Below, in pieces: positions 6,107-38,710 of a stretch of 38,781 nucleotides of DNA. The position numbers and the translations under genes were made by a program. The notes under the pieces were generated by a model, which ran no database searches, was not told where the DNA came from, and saw nothing but the letters and a program-made list of their open reading frames with translations. The stretch's first letter is position 1; the number at the start of each line of letters is the position of its first letter. This stretch comes from Candidatus Afararchaeum irisae (GTDB lineage: Archaea > Halobacteriota > Halobacteria > Halobacteriales > Afararchaeaceae), in contig JAXIOF010000049.1 in assembly GCA_034190545.1 (NCBI GenBank), positions 1 through 38,781 of the forward strand, in the 5' to 3' direction.

Positions 6107-6278
6107 CATCCTCCCCGCCGTAAACGGCGAGACTTCCCGTCCCGCAGTTGGGATATTTGCCGGTCTACGATACGACCTGTTCTCTCGTGCGAAACGTCCC
6201 GCTCTCGCGGTCGAACAGGTGTACCGATGGCTGTGCCACGCAGCCGTTACTCCTATCCTCACCATGAGGACTCGGAGT
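6103..6278 (-). ncRNA. Candidate omega (reRNA) guide RNA of TnpB copy 2
   Basis: In characterised IS200/IS605 systems the guide RNA is processed from the tnpB 3' end plus the element right end, with the guide in the adjacent host DNA. Here the tnpB tail, a conserved GGATATTTGCCGG-type stretch and the terminal hairpin are arranged in that way and shared with copy 3. The guide would then be read from the 3' end of the TauE gene. Expression and exact ends are inferred. Confidence 0.4.
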
Positions 6279-7460
6279 TATCTCTGAACTTCGTTCAGAG
6301 GTTAACGAAGCTTTGCTTCGTGATATCTTCTGCCGCATATTCTCCGCCCCATTACAATCCGCGTTGGCTACCAATTCACACGACGAGCAGACGTACAGTC
6401 CCCGTTCGACACGGTTCGACTTCGTGTCGTCACCACATCGTGAACACGTTTTCGAGGTGTCCCACTCGTTCTCCTTCAGCACCTCGACACCGCGAATCTC
6501 GCCTTTGTATTCGAGGTACTGGTAGATGCGGTCGAACGCCCACGAGTGCAGCTTCTTGTTGCCAGTCTTACCCCAGTCAGATTCTCGCACGTCTTCGGGC
6601 CAACTCACTGCGAGCGTGCCGACACCGCGTTCGACACACTCTGTGATGATGGTGTCTGTCAGCGTGTGGTAGAAGTGTGTCTCGCGCTCTGTGAGTTTTC
6701 GACGTGCCCACATCGACTTTTCGGACGGCCCGTTCTCACCCTCAGTGTCGTACTCCGCTCGAGTGAAGTAGTGCTTGTCTTCTTTGAGTGAGTTGCCGGG
6801 GTAGAGAACGTATTCGTCGGGGAAGGCGACCGTGGCGATGTTCTTGATTCCGAGATCGATGCCTGCCACTCCGTTGCCAGCAGAGTCGTTGGTTTCGAGG
6901 CTGACTTTGCAGACGAAGTGCAGTTCCCACTCCTCACCATTCCAGACTGCGCGAACGCTCTGCACCTTGGTTACTTCTGAGAGGTCAACGTCAGGGCGTG
7001 TCTGGTACTCACAGAGGAGGAAGTCCGAGCGGTGGTCTTTCAGGTTCGAGCCTTTCGAGAGGCGGACTTGCTGGTGTTTCGTGTCAAGTTTGAATCCGTC
7101 TTCTTTGAAGGTGACTGTACTTCGTGGTCGGGTGTCGCCGTGTTTGCGGTAGCCGGGCGGGTTCGCCTTGTCGTCCTTGTGTCGCAAGTCGAACCATGAC
7201 TGGAAAGCGTCGGAAAGTTCTTCGATGACTTTCTGACTGGATTGTGCGTTCAAATCTTTCCAGCACTCTCGGTTCTTCATGTACGCTTTGAGCGTTCCTT
7301 CGTCTGGGATTTCGCCTGTTTCGCCCCAGATGCGGTCGGCTGTCCAGCGTGCGACGTTCCAGATTTTTGAGGCGGAGTCTCCGAGCGAATCGAGGCCGTC
7401 GCAGACTTGTCGCTGGTTCTGGATGAAACCAACGTAGGTGCGCGTGACCTCAATCGCCAT
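6165..7460 (-). CDS. tnpB: TnpB RNA-guided nuclease (IS1341-type), copy 2
   Basis: This transposon-encoded nuclease would use an RNA from the element right end to cut DNA and so favour retention of the element. It has 431 residues. The N-terminal wedge/helical part contains KIWNVARW and the RRPRST-like region. RuvC-I is GIDLGIKN, two CxxC pairs (CSRC, CSSC) form the zinc finger, and RuvC-III is ANADCNGAEN. The canonical RuvC-II Glu is not visible (AVSWPEDVRE), but YKGE lies about 45 residues on. Between RuvC-III and the tail there are about 15 residues (SRSKASLTSERSS region) that relatives lack, encoded by a 45-nt double hairpin. The frame is open throughout. Start ATG at 7460. Confidence 0.92.
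   Translation of the reverse strand: MAIEVTRTYVGFIQNQRQVCDGLDSLGDSASKIWNVARWTADRIWGETGEIPDEGTLKAYMKNRECWKDLNAQSSQKVIEELSDAFQSWFDLRHKDDKANPPGYRKHGDTRPRSTVTFKEDGFKLDTKHQQVRLSKGSNLKDHRSDFLLCEYQTRPDVDLSEVTKVQSVRAVWNGEEWELHFVCKVSLETNDSAGNGVAGIDLGIKNIATVAFPDEYVLYPGNSLKEDKHYFTRAEYDTEGENGPSEKSMWARRKLTERETHFYHTLTDTIITECVERGVGTLAVSWPEDVRESDWGKTGNKKLHSWAFDRIYQYLEYKGEIRGVEVLKENEWDTSKTCSRCGDDTKSNRVERGLYVCSSCELVANADCNGAENMRQKISRSKASLTSERSSEITPSPHGEDRSNGCVAQPSVHLFDRESGTFRTREQVVS
6279..6328. repeat. 45-nt double-hairpin insertion inside tnpB copy 2
   Basis: Two triloop palindromes, CTCTGAAC-TTC-GTTCAGAG (6282-6300) and ACGAAGC-TTT-GCTTCGT (6305-6321), are joined by GTTA. Compared with tnpB copy 3 this is an extra 45 nt (15 codons) that keeps the frame. 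TATCT occurs at 6279-6283 and again at 6324-6328, exactly 45 nt apart, like a five-base target duplication. The insertion sits in the variable linker after RuvC-III. Confidence 0.75.
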
Positions 7461-7565
7461 ATATAGCCCATGTAGTCAAACCGACTTAATAGTGTGGAGT
7501 GGTGTTGAATATCCGGCCTGCCATCGACAGTGGTTAGCGTCTGCGTTGTCGGATTCACTCCCGTT
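7461..7565. other. tnpB copy 2 upstream region
   Basis: This stretch separates the tnpB start from the hairpin array. On the minus strand it contains GGCCGGATATTCAAC, shared with the corresponding region of copy 3, and an AT-rich TATTAAG-like sequence about 25-30 nt before the ATG that could be the tnpB promoter. It has no ORF. Confidence 0.45.
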
Positions 7566-7852
7566 CGCCAGACTGCGTCTGGCGGGCAACCAGAATCCTG
7601 TGGATTCTGGGTGACGTCCCCAGAACGCGAAGCGTTCTGGTGTGCCGAACGAGACGCTTCGCGTCTCGTCAACGTCCCCAGAAATCTTCGATTTCTGGTA
7701 TGCGAACAAATCGCGCAGCGATTTGTCAACGTCCCCAGAACCCGAAGCGTTCTGATATGCGGACGAGAGCTTCGCTCTCGTCAACGTTCGAAAGACGCTT
7801 CGCGTATTTCGAGCCCACAAGACCGAAGGTCTTGTGAACGCCCTGAAGGGCG
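7566..7852. repeat. Array A: eleven tandem triloop hairpins in the left end of IS copy 2
   Basis: Hairpins start at 7566, 7590, 7620, 7649, 7678, 7706, 7736, 7762, 7789, 7816 and 7839. Most have a 9-bp stem and a three-base loop, mainly TTC or GAA, closed by C-G. Spacers of 6-9 nt alternate between a CAACGTCC type and a TATGCGA type, giving a unit of about 57 nt that contains two different hairpins. Two members carry single stem mismatches (7736-7754 and 7789-7811). The array splits the CCCGCCCT/AGGGCGGG left-end hairpin of the transposon. There is no coding potential. Confidence 0.9.
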
Positions 7853-7888
7853 GGATTCTCTCCTCGCAGAAAGATAGACTCTCGCCCC

Positions 7889-32232: not shown

Positions 32233-32383
32233 TCAAACTCTACGAGTTTGATGGCTCGTGAATCTAAGATTCACGAACGCTCGTTGAGGGTGTCGTCAGA
32301 AGCGGAGCTTCTGACTGCTCGCAAATCTACGATTTGCGATGTCTCTGAGGGAACCTCAGAGGCTCGTGAACTTTCGTTCACGA
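32233..32383. repeat. Array D: six triloop hairpins after tnpB copy 4
   Basis: Hairpins lie at 32233-32251, 32256-32276, 32296-32314, 32319-32339, 32343-32361 and 32364-32383, with stems of 8-9 bp. Loops are TAC, TAA, GGA, TAC, GAA and, in the last, TTTC. Spacers are short (2-4 nt) except 19 nt between the second and third. The last two hairpins form the 3' end of the tnpB reading frame: the stop codon at 32356-32358 lies in a stem. Confidence 0.88.
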
Positions 32384-33624
32384 TGGGGCTTGTCGGTGGA
32401 CTCCGCCTCTGACTCCATAACAGAGTACGAGACAAATCCTCGGTTCGGCTTCACAGTCCCCGACTTCAGGGCGAGTTGACTGTCGCCCGTCCGCCGTGAG
32501 TCATGTAGCCCACGACGGACAAACCGCCATCCCACGTTCTTCGCCGCGTTATAATCTGCATTCGCCGTCGCACCACACTTCTCACACTCGAAGAAATCGC
32601 GCTCCGTTCGGTTGCCATCGCTCGTATGACCGCACTCACAACACCGCTTCGACGTATTCTCAGGGTCAACGTACACGACTGTGATACCAAGTTCCTCAGC
32701 CTTGTACTCGACGTACTTGACGAGTTGGGCGTGCGCCCACTGGTGGAACTTACGCTTGCTCGGCATCGAGTCGCGGATGTGCGTCAAGTCCTCGAACGCG
32801 ATGTGCGTGCAGTCGTAGGCGACTGCCTCCGCGAGCAACCGATTCGACACCCTGTGCAGGTAGTCACGGTTGTACCGTTCTTCGCGGTTATCCCGCTGGA
32901 CGAGTGTGCGATGCGCGGACTCAGTGCCGGTTTCTTGGAGGCCGCCGCGAACGCGCTCGAACTCGCGGTGTTCGTGCAAGAGTTCTTGGCCTGACTCGAA
33001 GTGAGCGGTGCTGGTGACGGCGAGGTTTTCGATGCCGAGGTCAACCCCGAGAACTGTCCTGTCCTCGGCGGGTGACTCGTCGGCATCGGGCTTCGGCTTA
33101 CGGAAGCCGAGGTGCAGAAAGTAGTCACCATCACGCGCTGTCAGCGTCGATTCCGTCACTTCCCACTCGTCGCTGTCGAGGTACTGGTACTGGTAGCCGT
33201 CTTCGTCGTCGGGCAGTACCAATTCGCACCGCACTCGACTGTCGGTGGTGGCGAGGGAGACGGTGTTGTCATCGAACAGGGTCATCGTGTTGGCGTCGTA
33301 CTTCACCGTGGGAGCGGTGAACTCGGGTTTCGAGTAGTTACGACCCTGCTGTTTGCGTTCATCGACGCCTTTCAGGGCTTGTGCGGCTTGGAAGCACGCG
33401 AGGATGGCGTGTTGACTCCCGAGACGAGTTTGGTCACGAACATCGTCGTATGCGAGTGACTGGAGTTTCCGCTTACGGGTTTCGTAGTGTTCCCAGCCGA
33501 TGTCCGTGGCAATGTTCGCACCTGTGCGCCACTCGTCAATCGTGTCTTCGAGCAGGTCGGCCTGCTCAGGGGACACGGAGAGGCGCGTTATTGCGGTGCG
33601 TCTCAGGTAGTCGTCGTCCGACAC
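32356..33624 (-). CDS. tnpB: TnpB RNA-guided nuclease, second subtype (copy 4)
   Basis: An RNA-guided nuclease of 422 residues from an IS200/IS605-type element. RuvC-I is GVDLGIENLAV, RuvC-II is AFEDLTHIRD with the canonical Glu, the zinc finger is CCECG and CEKCG, and RuvC-III is NADYNAAKN, so all catalytic residues are present. The C-terminal GGLHDSRR-like region and SGTVKPN are typical of this haloarchaeal subtype. The last eight or so residues (RERKFTSL) are encoded by a triloop hairpin and are probably not original. Codons such as CGC and ATC are favoured, unlike the neighbouring chromosomal genes. Confidence 0.93.
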   Translation of the reverse strand: MSDDDYLRRTAITRLSVSPEQADLLEDTIDEWRTGANIATDIGWEHYETRKRKLQSLAYDDVRDQTRLGSQHAILACFQAAQALKGVDERKQQGRNYSKPEFTAPTVKYDANTMTLFDDNTVSLATTDSRVRCELVLPDDEDGYQYQYLDSDEWEVTESTLTARDGDYFLHLGFRKPKPDADESPAEDRTVLGVDLGIENLAVTSTAHFESGQELLHEHREFERVRGGLQETGTESAHRTLVQRDNREERYNRDYLHRVSNRLLAEAVAYDCTHIAFEDLTHIRDSMPSKRKFHQWAHAQLVKYVEYKAEELGITVVYVDPENTSKRCCECGHTSDGNRTERDFFECEKCGATANADYNAAKNVGWRFVRRGLHDSRRTGDSQLALKSGTVKPNRGFVSYSVMESEAESTDKPHRERKFTSL

Positions 33625-34009
33625 ACGTTCAAAGAATGCCTATGGTTACTTAATAGTTGGTGTCTGACTGATGTGTGGGTGACGCGCTCCTCCCCGCCCT
33701 ACTGCGTATGCGAATCTTCGATTCGCTTGTGCTGGAAAACTCTTAGAGTTTTCTGCATCACAGAAATTGAAGATTTCTGAACGTCCTCAGAACGCTTCGC
33801 GTTCTGATATGCGAACGAGAGCTTCGCTCTCGTTAACGCCACTCGCTTCGCTGCGTTGCGTTGTGTTGAAAATCGGAGATTTTCATACGTATGCGAATCT
33901 CTGATTCGCAACACTTCTTGAGGACGTCCCGAGATCTCCGATCTCGTGGGCTCAGAAATCTGAGATTTCTGAACGGGGACTCCGCGCTACCACACAGTTG
34001 AAGCTTCGT
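33625..34009. other. Upstream region of tnpB copy 4 (contains array B)
   Basis: This 385-base stretch between tnpB and npdG holds the probable tnpB promoter (ACTATTAAGTAACC on the minus strand, about 20-30 nt before the ATG), a GC-rich left-end sequence and array B. It has no gene. Confidence 0.6.
33710..33972. repeat. Array B: about ten triloop hairpins in the left end of IS copy 4
   Basis: Clear hairpins are at 33710-33726, 33735-33753, 33761-33779 (one G-T pair), 33787-33807, 33814-33834, 33867-33885, 33892-33910, 33930-33946 and 33952-33972. A weaker GC-rich imperfect one lies at about 33840-33865. Loops are three bases (TTC, TTA, GAA, TTC, TTC, GGA, TCT, TCC, TGA). The pair at 33782-33838, including its ACGTCC and ATATGCG spacers, is nearly the same as 7730-7786 in array A. 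Confidence 0.88.
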
Positions 34010-34760: not shown

Positions 34761-34826
<66 letters not shown>

Positions 34827-34835
<9 letters not shown>

Positions 34836-35011
34836 AATCTTTGATTTGCGAGCCAGCGAAATCTACGATTTCGCGACGGAGCAAATTTCTCTGAAATTTG
34901 CATGGAACAGAATCGTAGATTCTGTGACGGAGCAAAAATTTCTGGTTTTTGCTAACACGCGAGAACTCCGTTCTCGCGGGCTCAGAAATCTGAGATTTCT
35001 GAACGGGGACT
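34827..35011. repeat. Array C: tRNA-Glu 3'-end repeats with seven triloop hairpins
   Basis: GACGGAGCA, the last nine bases of tRNA-Glu, occurs at 34827-34835, 34875-34883 and 34926-34934 (periods of 48 and 51 nt). Between copies lie hairpins at 34833-34849, 34856-34874, 34881-34901, 34907-34925 and 34932-34952 (two G-T pairs), then 34958-34978 and 34982-35002. All have three-base loops. The final 34 nt (34978-35011) are identical to 33948-33981, the outer end of array B. No tnpB is adjacent, so this is a non-coding array abutting a tRNA. Confidence 0.88.
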
Positions 35012-37267: not shown

Positions 37268-37453
37268 TTCAGCGAGAGAATCCCGCCCTTTCCGTGAGGG
37301 ACGAGTGTTCCGACACTTGTTGTCGGAACCGAGGACCGAACAGGGCGGGAGTGAATCGCGTAAGCTCCGGTGAGGGGCCGTCACTGCTTCGCTCGGCTGG
37401 ATATTCAACGTCGACACGAAATCATTAAGTCATTGTACTGTCATAGTCTATGT

Positions 37454-38710
37454 ATGGTGAATCTGGTCACGACACGCACCATTACAGCGGCACTCACCAA
37501 CGACCGTGAGGGTGTCGTGCGTGACCTGGATTTACTCAGTCGTTCCGGCAGCAAAATCTGGAACGTTGCTCGGTGGATCGCTGGCCGCATCTGGGACCAC
37601 ACCGGAGAAATTCCGGATGAGGGACCGCTCAAGTCCTACATGACGAACCAACAGTGCTGGAAAGATTTGAACTCGCAGTCAAGTCAGGCAATCGTCGAAG
37701 AATTGGCTGGCGCTTTCCAGTCGTGGTTCAACAAAGACGACCCCGATGCCAACCCACCGGGCTACCGCAAAGACGGCGATGAACGACCACGTTCAACAAT
37801 CACGTTCAAAGAAGACGGCTTCAAACTCGACACGAACCACCAGCAAGTCCGCCTCTCCAAAGGCAAGAACCTGAAAGACGGGTGGAGCGACTTTGTTCTC
37901 TGCGAATATGACACCGGCTCGGACGTATCCCTCACCAATGTCGAAGACGTCCAACAGGTCCGCATCGTCTGGAACGGCGACCACTGGGAGCTTCACTTCG
38001 TCTGTAAGGTCGCCATCAACGCCGCCGACTCGTTTGGCGAGAAGACGGCTGGTGTTGACCTCGGTATCTGCAATACGGCAGCTGTCTCTGTCGGTGACGA
38101 AACCGTGTTGTATCCGGGCAACACGTTGAAAGAAGACGCACACTACTTCCGGCAGGAAGAGTACGACACGGAAGGTGAGAACGGCCCCAGCAACCATGCT
38201 GAATGGGCACGCCGCAAGAAATCCCGGCGGCAGACCCACTACCTGCACGCTCTCTCGAAAGACCTCGTGAACCAATGTGCAGATCGTGGTGTGGAGACGA
38301 TAGCAGTTGGCCATCCGAAAAACATCCGCGAGGATGAAGACTGGGGCAGGCACGGCAACAAGCGCCTCCATGACTGGGCGTTTGAAACTCTGCTCAGTCA
38401 CATCGAGTACAAGGCTGAAGAACGTGGTATTGAGGTTGAGCGGGTCGATGAGTACGAACTGGCTACGTCGATAACGTGCTGTGAGTGTGGCATGAAAGCG
38501 GATTCAAACCGTGTTGAGCGTGGCTTGTACGTGTGTGAGAACTGCGAGTTGGTCGCTAACAGCGACCTGAATGCGGCTGAGAATATGCGAGCGACGGTAA
38601 CTCCGAATCCAGAGATGGATAGGAGTAACGGCTGTCTGGCCCAGCCATCGGTCCGCCTGTTCGACAAATCAACGGGGAGAGTAGCCCCACAAGAACAGGT
38701 CTGCCCGTAG
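37454..38710 (+). CDS. tnpB: TnpB RNA-guided nuclease (IS1341-type), copy 3
   Basis: An RNA-guided nuclease of 418 residues and the best-preserved relative of copies 1 and 2. The helical N-terminus contains KIWNVARWIAGRIW, the RuvC-I motif is GVDLGICN, zinc-finger pairs are CCECG and CENC, and RuvC-III is NSDLNAAEN. The usual RuvC-II Glu position reads AVGHPKNIRE; a Glu in YKAEERG about 45 residues on could serve instead, as described for some TnpB/Fanzor proteins. The C-terminal tail DRSNGCLAQPSVRLFDKSTG is full length. The ATG at 37454 matches the start of copy 2; an upstream in-frame start at 37370 would run through the left end. Confidence 0.93.
   Translation: MVNLVTTRTITAALTNDREGVVRDLDLLSRSGSKIWNVARWIAGRIWDHTGEIPDEGPLKSYMTNQQCWKDLNSQSSQAIVEELAGAFQSWFNKDDPDANPPGYRKDGDERPRSTITFKEDGFKLDTNHQQVRLSKGKNLKDGWSDFVLCEYDTGSDVSLTNVEDVQQVRIVWNGDHWELHFVCKVAINAADSFGEKTAGVDLGICNTAAVSVGDETVLYPGNTLKEDAHYFRQEEYDTEGENGPSNHAEWARRKKSRRQTHYLHALSKDLVNQCADRGVETIAVGHPKNIREDEDWGRHGNKRLHDWAFETLLSHIEYKAEERGIEVERVDEYELATSITCCECGMKADSNRVERGLYVCENCELVANSDLNAAENMRATVTPNPEMDRSNGCLAQPSVRLFDKSTGRVAPQEQVCP

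Follow-up and report, generated by a model that had tools for sequence, protein, structure and literature searches.

The hairpin array upstream of a tnpB gene in the window (the whole 38,781-nt stretch of DNA that we analysed) is probably made of copies of a non-autonomous mobile DNA element, a unit of about 50-58 bp that grows head-to-tail at CG dinucleotides. Comparison between genomes is what points to this reading. It shows that the unit is a discrete entity, that its sites exist in empty and filled forms, and that one such site has been occupied in many lineages. The same comparisons show that arrays differ by whole units, that units have entered coding sequence in frame, that hairpin pairing is maintained under a rule for the hairpin tips, and that the unit has spread through the Halobacteriales.

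The array consists of five two-hairpin units

The sequence-only reading described a 57-nt unit of two hairpins and two alternating spacers, repeated three times. Three direct copies of such a unit do lie between 7615 and 7784, with start-to-start spacings of 58 and 57 nt. The unit recurs, but at lengths of 55, 57 and 58 nt, of which 57 is the average. The array is also longer than first noted: it runs from 7562 to 7838 and holds five units, of which the three noted copies are the middle ones, while the outer two are two-hairpin units of other sequence (Table 1).

On the plus strand, the cited units read as a CAGAA-type hairpin, the internal spacer, an ACGA- or ACAA-type hairpin and the junction. 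Both alternating spacers are real. One is the unit-to-unit junction, which reads ..ACG^T.. in the direction of tnpB, on the minus strand (^ marks the boundary), and CAACGTCC on the plus strand; the other is the internal spacer, which on the plus strand appears as TGTGCCGA, TATGCGA or TATGCG. Every junction in the array is ACG^T, each unit starting with T and finishing with ACG. It is the two hairpins and two spacers together that recur as a unit, and other genomes contain precisely one such unit as a single copy.

The array is far beyond chance. The window contains 27 perfect hairpins (stem of at least 8, 3-nt loop), compared to 0-5 in 20 dinucleotide shuffles, and the fold of the array as single-stranded DNA has a z of -11.2. 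The window belongs to a 1.9-Mb haloarchaeal genome, G000, whose relatives point to the Halobacteriales. Across 31 arrays of this genome, which were sampled through search matches, junction and internal spacers alternate in 52 of 88 steps, compared to a mean of 39 in within-array shuffles (p = 0.0002). The number of units is 5, 5, 3 and 2 in four paralogous arrays of this genome, which have common end units and different middles; gain and loss of whole units would produce such a pattern. The end unit that we call unit 1 is also present in the paralogous arrays at C23:40056 and C31:32175. Some other hairpin clusters in G000, for example near tnpB 3' ends, fall outside the unit grammar.

Table 1. 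Features of the array, its insertion site and its surroundings, in window coordinates.
Feature	Position	Strand	Description
sot0042 (RF02656) RNA	6112-6283	-	overlaps tnpB 3' end; separate from the array
tnpB	6165-7460	-	OrfB_IS605 and Cas12f1-like TNB; 431 aa
Insertion in tnpB	6282-6326	-	45 nt, two hairpins, in frame; adds ISRSKASLTSERSSE (15 aa)
Inner part of TnpB-element left end	7540-7561	-	GGAGTGAATCCGACAACGCAGA
Unit 5	7562-7614	-	53 nt; two hairpins, TCACCCAGAATCC..TTGCC..TCTGGCGAACG
Unit 4	7615-7672	-	type A, 58 nt; model R1 match, E 1.7e-21
Unit 3	7673-7729	-	type A, 57 nt; model R1 match, E 4.6e-19
Unit 2	7730-7784	-	type A, 55 nt; partial decay of second hairpin; among the three copies first noted
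Unit 1	7785-7838	-	54 nt; two hairpins, TTCACAAGACC..ggc..TTTCGAACG
Outer part of split TnpB-element left-end palindrome	7839-7862	-	GAGAGAATCCCGCCCTTCAGGGCG; insertion after the last CG
Further type A unit	33782-33836	-	part of another array, which precedes the tnpB gene at 32356-33624 (minus strand)

Hairpin pairing is maintained and the tips follow a rule

The earlier claim that the spacers are conserved while the hairpins vary holds in relation to the inner stems and loops, but it fails for the outer stems, which are the most conserved part of the unit and which the spacers do not exceed. In 36 distinct units, which were gathered by a model seeded on the window array so that conservation may be inflated everywhere, the mean entropy is lowest in the outer stems (0.05-0.10 bits), followed by the junction (0.20), the internal spacer (0.32), the inner stems (0.43-0.78) and the loops (1.4-1.7). 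Aligning these units and taking all stem columns together gives 0.25 bits for spacers versus 0.34 for stems, a difference that does not reach significance (p = 0.26).

Within the same 36 units, 98.1% of base-pair cells are paired. Double changes are seen in 60 cells versus 17.1 +/- 3.1 in shuffles, a count that is inflated by kinship among the units, and the signal is gone when the partners are slid. Hairpin pairing is maintained, with the inner stems changing in a compensated manner.

The loops vary, but within a rule. A C-G pair closes a 3-nt loop in all 104 hairpins of the 52 oriented units that could be parsed, and C-G is also the closing pair in 84 of 90 distinct perfect hairpins from the sampled part of G000. 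GNA or TNC loops account for 68 of the 104, compared to 18% of background CNNNG, and the wider class of RNA or TNY loops (R, purine; Y, pyrimidine) accounts for 91, compared to 29%. The tip rule is a C-G pair that closes a GNA or related triloop, and it can be satisfied on either strand. GNA loops on G-C stems form extraordinarily stable DNA mini-hairpins, with a Tm of 78 C for GCGAAGC (PMC4686876), and the rule suggests that the hairpins act as single-stranded DNA. Pairs of reverse-complementary loops also occur at the same oriented hairpin (12 and 18, versus 3.5 and 2.1 expected; p <= 0.002). We considered this signal as proof that tips flip and rejected it, because a tip rule that applies to either strand explains it equally well.

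Units occupy the left-end palindrome of TnpB elements

Next to the array lies the tnpB gene of an IS200/IS605-type element, and its product reaches 89-92% identity to TnpBs of other haloarchaea. Among roughly 70 homologous haloarchaeal TnpB elements, about 60 carry the pattern GAGAATCCCGCCGTTTACGGCGGGAGTGAATCC with its near-terminal palindrome, in a 25-27-nt block that contains no unit; the empty left end in these homologs reads GAGAATCCCGCCGTTTACGGCG^GGAGTGAAT. In the window the palindrome is broken after ..GGGCG and its two parts are split around five units, which identifies the array as an insertion into the left-end palindrome.

At least seven other elements have filled left ends, all after the same CG as in the window. 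Three of them, from three genomes (L118, L158 and L173), contain exactly one type A unit at the identical base pair (+57). The units in L127 (+52) and L137, again one each, resemble unit 5 of the window, and those in L146 (+55) and L162 are in the opposite orientation. The flanks of L075 and L081 are the same as those of filled TnpB left ends. This one site has thus received units of several sequence types, pointing either way.

In a tree of 72 TnpB proteins, the filled L158, L162 and L173 each have empty elements as sisters at starred support; the window element and L118 also group with empty sisters, at support slightly below that level. Repeated insertion is the simplest reading of these filled and empty left ends, and part of the pattern could instead come from repeated precise loss from an occupied ancestor. 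The empty sequence resumes on either flank of every unit, and a single CG is left over. This CG could come equally from duplication of 2 bp of the target or from an end of the element that matches the target.

Units are also found within coding sequence

The window tnpB itself carries a two-hairpin insertion (Table 1), which is absent from the homologs aligned across that stretch and has a single-stranded DNA fold z of -5.6. This insertion ends where the sot0042 RNA begins and could affect that overlapping RNA. Comparable inserts occur in other genomes: the tnpB genes of L189 and L193 have an in-frame insert of 19 aa, L082 and L211 have another, and L146 and L168 have hairpin inserts of 18-20 aa. 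In L071, two hairpin pairs lie in frame near the start of an IS200-type tnpA, at VWC/CPK and PKS/YRH, and the same hairpins are present in L070.

The unit is widespread in Halobacteriales

A covariance model of the unit (R1) has matches in 178 of 195 genomes and 60 of 66 genera of the Halobacteriales, with per-genome unit counts that are lower bounds. Outside this order, 163 genomes of the phylum were sampled, and R1 gives weak matches in 6 of them. Such weak matches, in G219, G228, G235 and G325, number several per genome in one genus and are possible distant relatives of the unit. R1 matches 41 of 72,556 plasmid records, every one of them haloarchaeal among the matches listed, and no phage record searched gave a match. 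No Rfam family matches the array at the Rfam cut-offs.

We scanned the neighbourhoods of 57 sampled unit loci with six query proteins. At least 22 of these loci place the unit upstream of a tnpA or tnpB gene, no more than 400 nt away; at five others it is near a tnpB 3' end, and at some neither TnpB nor TnpA was detected nearby. When the flanks of single units are joined, 7 of 24 (29%) reach a stem score of at least 5, versus 14% of controls. The stronger statement that insertions are always within palindromes was rejected, as the enrichment among singletons is only modest and many of them lie outside any palindrome. One plasmid locus, at 2501-2559 of L216 (Halorientalis plasmid pHOS100), has a unit that overlaps the annotated start of orc1/cdc6, beside a tnpA-tnpB element, and the start codon given in the annotation may be part of the unit.

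A proposed model for movement through single-stranded DNA

We propose a model in which the unit, with the layout CG^TT..[hairpin]..[hairpin]..GGA^CG, would present two single-stranded DNA hairpins with 3-nt tips, separated by a conserved internal spacer and bounded by short conserved ends. Its insertion sites would adjoin a CG dinucleotide, and it would favour the near-terminal palindromes of IS200/IS605-type elements, specifically their right arm. Each insertion would remake a hairpin and a CG at the far end, so that further units could be inserted head-to-tail and the array could grow. Transposition would proceed via single-stranded DNA and would be carried out in trans by a hairpin-recognising enzyme.

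By analogy with IS200/IS605 elements and REPINs, a single-stranded DNA enzyme of the Y1/HUH type is the most natural suggestion, and we infer that the most likely enzyme is the Y1 (HUH) TnpA of an IS200/IS605 element, which need not stay in the genome. In 68 unit-bearing genomes, some with at least 20 unit matches, Y1 TnpA is not detectable, which argues that a resident TnpA is not needed for units to be present. Units and resident Y1 genes are weakly associated across genomes (odds ratio 3.9, p = 0.018), and we rejected this association as a means of naming the enzyme because it is too weak. Among the sequences searched, we found no transposase gene bounded by units that would serve as its ends. 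Between the hairpins and the unit ends are 2-5 nt, fewer than at the IS605-type left ends of this analysis.

A serious rival, although one that we consider improbable, dispenses with the transposase. Extruded hairpins would be nicked or would stall in replication, template-switch repair would copy in a double-hairpin unit, and tandem growth would be slippage. Mobile units of two hairpins occur in the mitochondria of fungi and other eukaryotes, and these double-hairpin elements are a possible parallel; no enzyme is known for them, and they have no known link to IS palindromes, whereas our unit, which shares their form, is tied to IS palindromes. Repair would fit the plentiful units in genomes such as G028 (at least 20 matches) and G033 (at least 16) that have no detectable TnpA. 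It would also fit the tips found in both orientations at one oriented hairpin, but that signal is equally expected from the either-strand tip rule. Repair is harder to reconcile with insertions that are precise to the base pair, comprise one whole unit and have constant ends beside CG in different genera.

Comparison to known mobile repeats

The mobile element that we propose may be filed as a variant of the short mobile palindromic repeats, with a way of working like that of REPINs or CGTC-REP dimers and targeting like that of SMR-A. The nearest described haloarchaeal relatives are the SMR-A elements of Haloquadratum walsbyi, which are also very short, lack a transposase gene and have as their insertion sites the palindromes close to the ends of IS605-type elements or PATEs, with no target duplication reported (PMC3119063). 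That paper was the only earlier report of such haloarchaeal arrays that we found, in a search that covered mostly open-access literature. Compared by description, SMR-A elements are longer (about 110 bp, versus 50-58 bp for our units) and have prominent terminal inverted repeats (PMC3119063), whereas the two ends of our unit have only CGT in common outside the hairpins. In addition, SMR-A was described from Haloquadratum, whereas our units make head-to-tail arrays and occur in most Halobacteriales sampled.

Head-to-head dimers of CGTC-REPs, which include RPE-4 and RPE-6 of Rickettsia and dRS3 of Neisseria, resemble the unit in having two hairpins with 8-9-bp stems, a conserved internal spacer, insertions in genes and no known dedicated transposase (PMC3733652). 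The tags agree in part: CGTC lies outside both palindromes of a CGTC-REP dimer, and most aligned units have CGTC at one outer end and CGTT at the other. Their loops are 4-5 nt long (PMC3733652) and their first two stem pairs are AT, whereas the unit has 3-nt loops and stems that begin C/T-C-A and A-C-G. CGTC-REPs have been described in five bacterial phyla only, and their clusters are rare (PMC3733652). REPINs are likewise non-autonomous replicative units of two palindromes with compensatory changes, thought to be moved by a Y1 enzyme (PMC3116915). Unlike REPINs, which are tagged and have a cognate RAYT (PMC3116915), the aligned units have no GTAG tag, and the 68 unit-bearing genomes noted above have no Y1 match of any kind. 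According to one survey, Y1 transposases in archaea belong to the IS200-type subclass only (PMC6006769).

A different origin, which we regard as unlikely, would make the units terminal-only remnants of IS200/IS605 elements (PATEs), with left and right ends fused by internal deletion. PATEs are frequent in Haloquadratum, have near-terminal palindromes, make no target duplication and occur in 52-bp terminal-only forms; like the unit, they are haloarchaeal, palindrome-bearing, transposase-free and tied to IS605-type elements (PMC3119063). However, terminal-only PATEs keep one palindromic repeat (PMC3119063), whereas the unit has two different palindromes, both close to its ends and with C[GNA]G tips. 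The ends of the host TnpB element have TTYA loops (CGCCGTTTACGGCG) instead of such tips, and about 20 nt of sequence outside the palindrome. The unit differs from this host element in tips and stems and shares no sequence with those of its ends that were compared. Among the IS families compared, which were some of those known, no complete element had ends like those of the unit.

It is very improbable that the array is simply an inherited part of the TnpB element, such as a regulatory leader or a part of the guide RNA, that is not mobile on its own. Two arrays in the window do lie directly 5' of a tnpB gene, but most homologous elements (about 60 of 70) have none, the filled ones are scattered on the TnpB tree, and the empty sites in close relatives count strongly against this reading. 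Units without a neighbouring TnpB or TnpA argue in the same direction, as does the known TnpB-linked RNA, sot0042, which is at the tnpB 3' end, while the array has no Rfam match. A CRISPR- or TIGR-like guide-RNA array is scarcely credible: two conserved short segments do alternate with variable stretches between them, but these stretches are palindromes (98.1% pairing) that belong to a limited common repertoire, and coding genes contain inserted single units.

Implications of a mobile double-hairpin unit

We favour the mobile-element reading, and it may extend further. It is conceivable, although short of probable, that the units represent an archaeal double-hairpin family that does not derive from known transposons, uses an ultra-stable triloop as its signal, and parasitises the end palindromes of IS200/IS605 elements as well as coding sequences with the help of some mobilising activity, perhaps disabling IS200/IS605 transposons in the process.

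If the unit is indeed mobile, most haloarchaeal genomes hold a miniature element whose unit, target and rule of growth are defined, and the movement of transposase-less palindromic repeats, including CGTC-REPs, SMRs and double-hairpin elements, becomes testable. The tip rule provides a concrete single-stranded DNA feature to look for in the responsible enzyme. TnpB nucleases are regarded as the relatives that gave rise to Cas12, and a unit that invades the ends and genes of TnpB transposons may control them.

Other hairpin clusters and tnpB genes

Further hairpins in the style of the unit are found elsewhere in the window. Six of them, at 34833-35002, start right at the 3' end of a tRNA-Glu gene (34761-34835). 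A conserved cluster of four hairpins, in unit-like style and without the unit grammar, lies at 32233-32383, at the 3' end of another tnpB lineage, and recurs in G000 at C18:4311-4399 and C38:2641-2729; it is perhaps part of the guide RNA of that lineage. The 38.8-kb window has four tnpB genes or fragments (32-898, 6165-7460, 32356-33624 and 37370-38710), and the 1.9-Mb G000 has 34 TNB-domain matches, a high density, with several contig ends in or near such genes.
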